Origin: Candidatus Bathyarchaeum sp.
GTDB taxonomy: Archaea; Thermoproteota; Bathyarchaeia; Bathyarchaeales; Bathyarchaeaceae
Length of the DNA: 33,427 nucleotides
Assembly: GCA_026014565.1 (NCBI GenBank)
Contig: JAOZIB010000030.1
Coordinates: 1-33,427, forward strand
Reading direction: 5' to 3'
The translations under genes and the position numbers were made by a program. This document shows positions 31,155-33,427 of this stretch, piece by piece (position 1 is the stretch's first letter; each line of letters begins with the position of its first letter). The notes under the pieces are model-generated. The model had not been told where the DNA came from and ran no database searches. It saw only the letters and a list, made by a program, of their open reading frames with translations.

Positions 31155-32108
31155 TTAGAATATGAATATTGAAACTCCAATTTGTTGCAACACAAATGCG
31201 GCATAGATGGCACAAAGGAAGACTGCTCCTTTTTTGTTTATGGATTTGTTGGAGCTTATCATGTACCAGACGGTGAGTGATGAGATTAGTACATAGAACA
31301 TTATGCTTTCTACTGCAAGGATGTTTACTTCGGAAAAGGAAACCAGTGATGATATTCCTAAAACCAAAGTGATGTTTGTGATGCAGCTTCCCAAAAGGTT
31401 GCCCAGAGCCATTTCATAGTATTTCTTTTTGAGTGTCTGAACGGTGGTAGCCAATTCGGGAATGGAGGTGCCTACTCCTATAATTGTTGCCCCGATAATG
31501 GAGGAAGGCAAATTAACAAAGTCGGCTATGTCCAGTGAGCTGTCTACTACTAGTTGGGATAGAAAAATTATGATAAGTAAACAGCAAATAAATTTCAAAC
31601 CCGCCCTCACGGGTTTTTCTGTGAGTTCGTCGGGTTGTTCGGCTATTTGGGATTGTTTTGGGGTTTTGGAGATTGTGAAGCTAAAATAAACAAACAGTAT
31701 CAGCAAAACAAATCCCAGAACTGGTCCTAGGCTACCCCGTTGTACGATGAATAAGGGTATGACGGAGGATAAGAACAGAAACTGTACGAGTTCTTTTTGG
31801 GATTCTCCTTTAATGTGGATTGCAGTTTTACTTAGAAATACTGCTAGTCCAATGATGATGGTGAGGTTGGCGATGTTTGAGCCTAGTACGTTTCCTACGG
31901 ATAGTCCACCTTCGCCGGATATGGATGAGAGTATGGATACCGACAGTTCTGGCAGCGATGTTGTTATGGATAATAGAATAAATCCTGCTGCCATTTCTGA
32001 AAAGCCTAACCATTTTGATAGTACTAAGGTGTAGCTGATTATTTTGTCACTTACCAGTGCGATAAGAAACAGTGAGCCAATTAAAAGAAGTACACTTAGA
32101 AGTATCAT
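31155..32108 (-). CDS. CaCA-family sodium/calcium exchanger
   Basis: A 317-residue transporter with about ten hydrophobic helices. The two inverted alpha repeats are clear: SITTSLPELSVSILSS plus VGNVLGSNIANLTIIIG in the first half, and GVGTSIPELATTVQTL plus LGNLLGSCITNITLVLG in the second. The acidic residues in the S-L/I-PE motifs are the ion-binding Glu pair. It would exchange Na or H for Ca across the membrane, like YrbG or archaeal NCX. ATG follows AAAGGGAT. Single gene, expressed away from the polyamine operon. Confidence 0.93.
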   Translation of the reverse strand: MILLSVLLLIGSLFLIALVSDKIISYTLVLSKWLGFSEMAAGFILLSITTSLPELSVSILSSISGEGGLSVGNVLGSNIANLTIIIGLAVFLSKTAIHIKGESQKELVQFLFLSSVIPLFIVQRGSLGPVLGFVLLILFVYFSFTISKTPKQSQIAEQPDELTEKPVRAGLKFICCLLIIIFLSQLVVDSSLDIADFVNLPSSIIGATIIGVGTSIPELATTVQTLKKKYYEMALGNLLGSCITNITLVLGISSLVSFSEVNILAVESIMFYVLISSLTVWYMISSNKSINKKGAVFLCAIYAAFVLQQIGVSIFIF

Positions 32109-32204: not shown

Positions 32205-32253
32205 AATTAAAAAAATACAAACAAATTCCTAGTTTGAGTTTGTTGTCAAACTA
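32205..32253 (-). terminator. Terminator of the micro-ORF pair
   Basis: Perfect 8-bp inverted repeat TAGTTTGA/TCAAACTA (32230-32253, 8-nt loop) includes the stop codon of the basic micro-ORF; on the minus strand a run of seven T follows at about 32212-32218. Confidence 0.6.
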
Positions 32254-32298
32254 TTTCTCTTTTTGAGCTTTGCTTTTCTTTCCTTTTTTCTTTCCCAT
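32251..32298 (-). CDS. 15-residue basic micro-protein
   Basis: MGKKKGKKSKAQKEK, nine Lys in 15 residues and one acidic residue. The Shine-Dalgarno GGGGAGGCGA ends about seven bases before the ATG. It is 49 nt downstream of the acidic micro-ORF in the same direction. A TATA-like AATATAGA lies 27-35 nt upstream, so it may also have its own promoter. The peptide is too short for a fold; it might bind RNA, DNA or its acidic neighbour. Translation is inferred only from the ribosome binding site and extreme composition. Confidence 0.5.
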   Translation of the reverse strand: MGKKKGKKSKAQKEK

Positions 32299-32347
32299 TA
32301 TATTCGCCTCCCCTACCCGGATTTTCTATATTGGGATGTTTGGTGGT

Positions 32348-32407
32348 TTACCAGTCTTCGTCTTCTTCTTCGTCGTCCCAATCTTCGTAGTCGTCTTCTT
32401 CGAACAT
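32348..32407 (-). CDS. 19-residue acidic micro-protein
   Basis: MFEEDDYEDWDDEEEDEDW, fourteen Asp/Glu and three Trp/Tyr in 19 residues, no basic residue. AGAGGTGA is placed five bases before the ATG, an excellent archaeal Shine-Dalgarno, and a TATA box (32446-32453) is upstream. No in-frame upstream start extends it: the frame is open only to a TAA at about 32470 and has no earlier ATG. Such an Asp/Glu/aromatic peptide could bind metal or basic proteins. Confidence 0.5.
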   Translation of the reverse strand: MFEEDDYEDWDDEEEDEDW

Positions 32408-32445
32408 TTGATTCACCTCTCTATTAGTTGCGCCATAGTAACCAG

Positions 32446-32453
32446 AATATATG
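32446..32453 (-). promoter_or_regulatory. TATA box of the micro-ORF pair
   Basis: GCATATATT on the minus strand is about 27 nt before the probable transcript start at 32420-32423 and leaves a short leader that contains the AGAGGTGA ribosome binding site. Confidence 0.45.
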
Positions 32454-32677
32454 CATTTAGGTTAAAAATAAAGCCAAATTTGACGGTTAAAAACTAAACA
32501 AAGAATTTTTTAGCATTAATTTTTGATTTATAAGTAAAAAACCCATCTAAAACAATAACAAAGGGCATAATACTGAGGGGCAATCAATCAAGTACCGATA
32601 CATCAAGGATTTCAAATCTAAAGCGATTAAAACCAAGGGTTACACAATGATTGTCTGTGGGTCAAAAAGCCATAACA

Positions 32678-33427
32678 CTAATTTGCTATTGTTTTTTGTG
32701 TGACTTTGTGTTTTGGGGGTTTTAGTGTGATTATGGTGCCTTTGGGGATTTTTGTGGTTATCCAGACGTTTCCACCGATGGTGGAGTTGTCGCCGATTAT
32801 GGCTTTTTCTCCGAGGATGGAAGCGTTGGAGTAGATGATGACGTTGTTGCCTACTGTGGGGTGCCGTTTTACGCCTTTAATCAGGTTGCCTTTTTCGTCT
32901 CGTGGAAAACTAAGAGCCCCCAACGTAACCCCCTGATAGATTTTCACGTTGTCCCCAATTTCTGCGGTTTCTCCTATAATCACGCTGGTGCCATGGTCAA
33001 TAAAGAAGCTCTTGCCAATGCTCGCACCGGGATGAATGTCAATCCCCGTAATGGAGTGGGCATGCTCGCTCATTATTCTTGGAATCAACGGAACTCCCCG
33101 AACATGCAACTGATGAGCCACCCTGTACGTAGAAATCGCCAACACACACGGATAACTCAAAATCACTTCATCTACACTTTGAGCCGCAGGATCACCCTCG
33201 TAAGCCGCTTTGATGTCTCCACTTAAAAGTAACCTTATACTGCAAAGCTCATCCAAAACCTCACCCACAATAACGCACGCAAACTCACGGCAAATATCCT
33301 CAGCACATTTCTCATGATTTTTACAAAAATACTTCAGGCTCTTGTCCACTTCCACGACCAGACGAGAATAAATCGACGCTAAAGTCTTGCTCAAATAATC
33401 TTCAACATTAGTTTTTTTGATTTTTTC
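32678..33427 (-). CDS. cysE: Serine O-acetyltransferase, partial at the 5' end
   Basis: At least 249 residues; the frame stays open through the window edge, so the true start is outside. It makes O-acetylserine from serine and acetyl-CoA for cysteine synthesis. An all-helical N-terminal region (RLVVEVDKSLKYFCKNHEK) precedes LSYPCVLAISTYRVAHQL and the left-handed beta-helix with the catalytic His in FIDHGTSVIIGETAEIGDNV, the serine-acetyltransferase signature. The long N terminus resembles EpsC-type enzymes. A TTG at 33394 could be an internal start but nothing supports it. cysS and thiI in the same window also need cysteine. Confidence 0.9.
   Translation of the reverse strand, partial: EKIKKTNVEDYLSKTLASIYSRLVVEVDKSLKYFCKNHEKCAEDICREFACVIVGEVLDELCSIRLLLSGDIKAAYEGDPAAQSVDEVILSYPCVLAISTYRVAHQLHVRGVPLIPRIMSEHAHSITGIDIHPGASIGKSFFIDHGTSVIIGETAEIGDNVKIYQGVTLGALSFPRDEKGNLIKGVKRHPTVGNNVIIYSNASILGEKAIIGDNSTIGGNVWITTKIPKGTIITLKPPKHKVTQKTIAN

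Follow-up and report, generated by a model that had tools for sequence, protein, structure and literature searches.

All archaea and eukaryotes have ABCE1, which is essential to them, yet the literature searched revealed no accessory factor for it in archaea. Among described systems, the closest to the locus presented here is eIF3j/Hcr1, which assists ABCE1 in recycling (PMC7196836) and contains an acidic motif centred on a conserved tryptophan, which binds in a hydrophobic pocket on its partner eIF3b (PMC2824034). The NTA motif of eIF3j/Hcr1 resembles our acidic peptide in being a Trp-organised acidic segment, a likeness in composition and spacing only, and in its tie to ABCE1 and recycling (PMC2824034, PMC7196836). 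However, eIF3j is longer than 250 amino acids and acts with eIF3, whereas the product described here is a free peptide of 16-45 amino acids with no detectable homology to eIF3j. To our knowledge, eIF3 is absent from archaea. Since the acidic repeats are of low complexity and give no profile match, the resemblance is compositional only, and we treat it as an analogy rather than as membership.

Three other systems share features with the locus. MgtL, an acidic leader peptide that controls mgtA (PMC11282234), likewise comes from a very short ORF that has its acidic motif near the start and lies immediately 5' of an important gene, as the copies at rli1, the gene for ABCE1, do. Unlike MgtL, the acidic family is far more acidic, Trp-periodic and conserved as a peptide, and its members are often found at loci other than rli1 or in divergent orientation to it. 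DSS1/Sem1 is a very acidic, short chain with spaced tryptophans that binds many partners, which recalls the acidic peptide, but it has about 70 amino acids, is eukaryotic, serves as a proteasome/BRCA2/TREX-2 subunit, and no sequence match between the two was found. The disordered tails of eIF1A are basic at the N-terminal and acidic at the C-terminal end, and the Lys/Gly peptide (MPKKKGKKKGKGKK) resembles the basic tail; this compositional likeness is a lead only.

The window, that is, the whole stretch of 33,427 nucleotides from Candidatus Bathyarchaeum sp. that was analysed, contains a micropeptide unit between cysE and a gene for a CaCA-type exchanger, with all elements on the same strand (Table 1).

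Table 1. Elements of the micropeptide unit and its flanking genes, in the order in which they are read on the minus strand
Feature	Position in window	Strand	Remark
cysE	32678-33394	minus	flanks the unit on the upstream side
TATA-like archaeal promoter element AAATGCATATAT	32447..32458	minus	read in the sequence
Shine-Dalgarno of acidic ORF, GAGGTGA (context GAGAGGTGA)	32413..32419	minus	7-nt match
Acidic micro-ORF MFEEDDYEDWDDEEEDEDW-stop, 19 aa, 14 D/E	32348..32407	minus	translation
Shine-Dalgarno of basic ORF, GGAGG	32307..32311	minus	sequence
Basic micro-ORF MGKKKGKKSKAQKEK-stop, 15 aa, 8 Lys	32251..32298	minus	translation
8-bp hairpin UAGUUUGA/UCAAACUA, begins at or overlaps the basic stop codon	32230..32253	minus	RNA fold
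7-T run, probable archaeal terminator	32209..32215	minus	sequence
CaCA-type exchanger	31155-32108	minus	flanks the unit on the downstream side

The TATA-like element is placed about 40 nt 5' of the acidic ATG, and the 49-nt gap from the acidic stop to the basic start contains the sequence GGGGAGG. The T run is a more convincing archaeal terminator than the hairpin, because the latter is modest (MFE -10.1 kcal/mol, z -1.57) and located 14 nt away. Judged by these elements, the unit represents a two-gene micropeptide operon with its own promoter-like box, ribosome-binding sites and terminator-like end. A sequence-only reading had described the acidic frame exactly, with 19 residues of which 14 are acidic, and had given the correct length of 15 residues for the basic frame, although it counted nine lysines where there are eight. 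The near-ideal Shine-Dalgarno sequences, the single promoter, the closing hairpin and T run, and the position between the exchanger and cysE that it reported were all recovered here. The same genome also encodes F420-dependent Mer, deoxyhypusine synthase and a pyruvoyl arginine decarboxylase, which mark it as an archaeal MAG. A pattern search of this genome gave no further copies of the unit, but it missed the known copy too and thus shows nothing.

The unit of an acidic followed by a basic ORF recurs in at least 12 other genomes of Bathyarchaeia, at different loci and in divergent DNA, with the charge of the peptides, the promoter and the ribosome-binding site maintained. Within the family, a DNA search recovered the entire unit at 69% identity in G005, which also shows a comparable UAGUUUGA...UUAAACUA stem, as well as less similar versions at other sites. 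The two-ORF pattern identified pairs in further genera and in two additional families of the order. Among 257 genomes, the pair pattern matched 15, a count that includes a few unrelated matches, as compared to none for the reversed-pattern control. When 13 pair loci were compared side by side, the Shine-Dalgarno sequences and the gene order were shared, and the promoter box was similar in most of them, with a AAATGCATATA-type box at a similar distance in G005, G014, G041, G154, G191, G198 and G024. Homologs of the basic ORF (MGKKKGKKGKGKKKE, MPKKKGKKKGKGKKEK and others) are located 3' of the acidic ORFs in these 13 loci, mostly followed by T runs, and the stop-to-start gap is 2-8 nt or 30-49 nt, except in G016, where it is 134 nt. 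Three genomes (G024, G154, G198) contain two pairs each. Since the neighboring genes differ between loci, the pair moves as one unit. A whole-collection pattern scan gave matches in close relatives within Candidatus Bathyarchaeum.

Several candidate contexts and occurrences were rejected. Synteny with the exchanger was discarded, as exchanger orthologues were found without the pair. Candidate pairs outside Bathyarchaeia turned out, when read, to be two aIF1A-like genes, of the kind starting with MPKKKRKR, and one unrelated ORF; by a pattern search of the phylum, the pair is confined to Bathyarchaeia. Several bacterial matches in the whole-collection scan were taken as chance and left unread. 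A protein search with the 15-residue basic peptide found no match, not even its own locus, and is uninformative. The canonical TFS/RpoL-type locus was likewise dismissed as a linked context, as only a second TFS paralogue is located near some pairs. This TFIIS-like paralogue lies 3' of the pair in G005, G013, G016 and G198, which represent three genera and a second family (L130:10223-10571, L116:10250-10565, and also L137 and L136), and is distinct from the canonical TFS locus.

The acidic ORF of the window belongs to a far broader unannotated family found across the phylum Thermoproteota, which the searches covered. The typical sequence is M(V/I)FEEEEEWEEEDWEEEEWEEEEW, and the members are Glu/Asp peptides of 16-45 residues in which the aromatic residues (Trp/Phe) are mostly 5 or 6 positions apart, with a Shine-Dalgarno sequence or a promoter close by. 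The window peptide agrees with this description (14 of 19 residues D/E, Tyr7, Trp10, Trp19, and a Shine-Dalgarno match of 7 nt). The pattern, which specifies repeats ending in Trp-stop, was found in 72 of 257 genomes of the class and 80 of 398 genomes of the phylum; a handful of the matches are visibly unrelated sequences, and the figures are lower bounds because the patterns miss divergent members. The reversed pattern gave no match in the 257 class genomes and few or none overall. Nearly all loci that were read are short ORFs rather than tails of long proteins. The 59 class-level ORFs have a median length of 24 residues and consist of 62% Glu, 13.5% Trp and 7% Asp. Since the pattern required Trp-stop, this ending is not an independent finding, and some members identified by other routes have a C-terminal Glu, Asp or Phe. 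A Shine-Dalgarno match of at least 7 nt precedes 31 of the 59 ORFs versus 0.3% of random start codons, an enrichment of about 100-fold that is partly due to selection, as the start with the best Shine-Dalgarno sequence was chosen. No Shine-Dalgarno-preceded acidic micro-ORF outside the family was found in about 330 kb around related loci, nor any other acidic tail with at least two tryptophans in 300 kb of phylum loci.

The peptides gave no match in NCBIfam or PDB, no Rfam covariance match was obtained up to E=1, and no description of the family was found in the open-licence literature. Relative to these databases and this literature, the family is new, and the earlier statement that no such pair had been described still holds.

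The acidic ORF is under strong purifying selection at the codon level. In 18 independent close pairs, 92 synonymous and 69 non-synonymous changes were observed, and 126 of the 161 substitutions were located at codon position 3. The synonymous fraction of 0.57 compares to a maximum of 0.34 in neutral simulations with kappa up to 8, and many of the non-synonymous changes are exchanges between Glu and Asp or between aromatic residues. These data bear on the idea that the frame is a non-coding, low-complexity purine tract in DNA or RNA that is open by chance. Although GAR and AAR codons do produce a purine-rich strand, the pyrimidines are nearly confined to the third codon position and to the codons of aromatic residues, substitutions are concentrated at position 3, and the Shine-Dalgarno enrichment over the null and the lack of an Rfam match do not fit such an element. 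We consider it extremely improbable and have rejected both the purine-tract and the RNA-element explanations on the basis of the codon-position substitutions and the Rfam result. The micropeptide unit in the window is genuine and not a product of chance. The frames, Shine-Dalgarno sequences, promoter and order recur across genera and families, so that the refuting condition set in the sequence-only reading, a lack of conserved frames or ribosome-binding sites in related genomes, does not apply, and its interpretation is partly supported.

The family is linked to rli1, which encodes the ribosome recycling factor ABCE1 (assigned by NF009945), across Thermoproteota. In the clustering of neighboring genes, rli1 is the commonest neighbor of the acidic ORF, present at 47 of the 59 class-level loci, nearly always on the same strand, 3' of the acidic ORF and mostly 130-250 nt from its start. 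At these loci, a gene that we take to encode an isoaspartyl peptidase/asparaginase is frequently located upstream of the acidic ORF. ABCE1 is near the acidic ORF at 27 of 40 phylum loci, at a distance of 29-49 nt in genomes that we call Sulfolobaceae-like; this name for family f42 was inferred because its ABCE1 best matches 3ozx and 6tmf, both of which are ABCE1 of Sulfolobus solfataricus. In a less biased test, the family model placed ABCE1 in 161 genomes, and the sequence 5' of it was read in 70 cases, most of which had been chosen independently of the acidic pattern. The acidic ORF occurs upstream of ABCE1 in about 14 families and is absent within 1.2 kb of ABCE1 in families including f29, f35-f37, f39, f44-f46, f48 and f50-f53. 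The linkage is ancient. It may still reflect general co-expression, since the neighborhood of rli1 holds other informational genes.

The same-strand position close upstream of rli1 raises the possibility that the acidic ORF is a cis-acting regulatory leader. Translation of the acidic run would then destabilise or pause the ribosome and control read-through of a T run into rli1, so that the supply of ABCE1 is tuned to recycling capacity, and the dispersed copies would be relics or would serve other genes as leaders. There are T-rich tracts between the acidic stop and rli1 at the Sulfolobaceae-like loci, and precedents exist in the aborted translation caused by N-terminal D/E runs through intrinsic ribosome destabilisation (PMC9718836) and in MgtL/mgtA and the relief of acidic-residue pausing by EttA (PMC11282234). 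However, a short ORF in the 5' leader on the same strand, seen at rli1 in most loci, is found neither at rli1 of the window genome, where ABCE1 is on a different contig without an acidic ORF, nor at the convergent orphans. At least six dispersed loci have a convergent next gene, the copies in family f28 are divergent from ABCE1, and in G332 the acidic ORF is 0.3 Mb away from it. In the genus of the window, the rli1 leader has lost the acidic ORF wherever it was readable, while seven of eight genomes retain a copy elsewhere, with or without a basic partner. Moreover, the 5-6 residue spacing of the tryptophans is unnecessary for an effect of this kind. Because dispersed and divergent copies cannot serve as rli1 leaders, function more likely resides in the peptide itself, and a purely cis-acting role is unlikely given the convergent downstream genes. 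Overall, we judge the leader explanation to be unlikely, and a regulatory role at rli1 may exist alongside a function of the peptide.

The explanation that we prefer, tentatively and with somewhat less than even confidence, is a trans-acting acidic-aromatic micropeptide that is tied to ABCE1 or the small ribosomal subunit and that acquired a Lys/Gly partner later, in Bathyarchaeia. The acidic peptide would act as a factor in ribosome recycling or on the small subunit: ABCE1 or the 30S subunit would offer a basic surface or pocket to its acidic-aromatic repeats, in the way that eIF3j docks on its partner through its acidic Trp motif. In Bathyarchaeia, some copies are no longer at rli1 and have acquired a Lys/Gly-rich micro-ORF on their 3' side, often coupled to them by a gap of 2-4 nt. 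The basic peptide would be made in step with the acidic one, to neutralise it or tether it to RNA. A more specific form, in which an ancient Thermoproteota micropeptide is dedicated to ABCE1 or to the 30S subunit after splitting and is an archaeal functional counterpart of the eIF3j acidic-Trp motif, turned into a two-peptide system with a Lys/Gly polycation in Bathyarchaeia, is possible but more doubtful. Evidence against a recycling role comes from dispersed copies near a second TFS paralogue or TBP, which point to transcription.

Alternatively, the two peptides may form a polyelectrolyte pair unrelated to recycling, in which the acidic one is a polyanion that mimics nucleic acid or forms condensates, the Lys/Gly one is its polycation, and the pair acts in transcription or on the nucleoid. 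Such a pair is consistent with the tight spacing of 2-4 nt in several loci, with the second TFS paralogue beside the copies in the four genomes named above, and with copies near TBP in G024, G013 and G023. It is harder to reconcile with rli1 as the commonest neighbor and with the absence of the basic partner, by pattern, from most genomes and from the phylum outside Bathyarchaeia, and we regard it as rather improbable. The same distribution excludes self-pairing, proposed in the sequence-only reading, as the original function; the oppositely charged partners are real, but they are not the whole story. Binding to nucleic acids, also raised there, or to the ribosome is possible in principle. The further suggestion of a toxin-antidote pair in that reading is in line with two close, co-oriented small ORFs that share a promoter-like box. 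Type II toxin-antitoxin systems are obligate pairs, unlike an acidic ORF that is mostly alone and tied to rli1/ABCE1 by an ancient linkage; no mobile or defence context was seen, and a fold of the toxin-antitoxin type is hard to imagine in 15-20 residues of one charge. We therefore consider this explanation most improbable.

A conserved peptide of 16-45 residues is encoded beside the ABCE1 gene phylum-wide, including in Sulfolobaceae-like organisms that have cultivable relatives. It would mean that standard gene calling, which drops such short ORFs, has overlooked part of the core translation cycle, be it a component or a regulator. The dispersed pairs would likewise offer a case from nature in which two micropeptides of opposite charge are made together.

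A few additional observations were made at the acidic loci. In G178 and G185 (L216, L217), the acidic peptide is joined to a basic N-terminus in a single ORF (MSKRKTPPKEEEEEEEEWEDWGEEEEEWEEEEWEEEEEEW), possibly a natural fusion of the two partners. An uncharacterised protein of about 250-280 amino acids recurs near dispersed acidic ORFs (L118, L120, L132, L208, L216, L217, L233, L240); its start looks Cas2-like (VVYRAxxExKxRxxIPxRLxxLGC), and the member scanned had no Pfam match. A Lys-rich ORF of 42-44 amino acids (MTKKSKKEKAAGREKHRQ..., MSKGKRKLERAERAKKK..., MAKKSRKEKAAGREKHRQ...) was also found repeatedly (L116:10593-10721, L122:11149-11283, L069), located 3' of the second TFS paralogue in L116 and L122, and two members scanned gave no Pfam match.

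In G011, G009 and G024 (L263, L265, L267), the region 5' of ABCE1 contains what look like degenerate remnants of the acidic ORF, in which the Shine-Dalgarno sequence is kept and the frame is short or broken and ends in GAATGG or GAGTGG; in G024, pairs are located elsewhere. In family f32 (G261, G269, G283, G290; one genus), a single in-frame stop interrupts the ABCE1 match, as TAG in three genomes and as TAA in one, which may be an edge effect of the alignment. In family f35 (G278, G292, G306), ABCE1 matches only from model position 56-57 within open frames of 922-926 codons, which suggests either that the N-terminal (Fe-S) region has been replaced or that the protein is a fusion.
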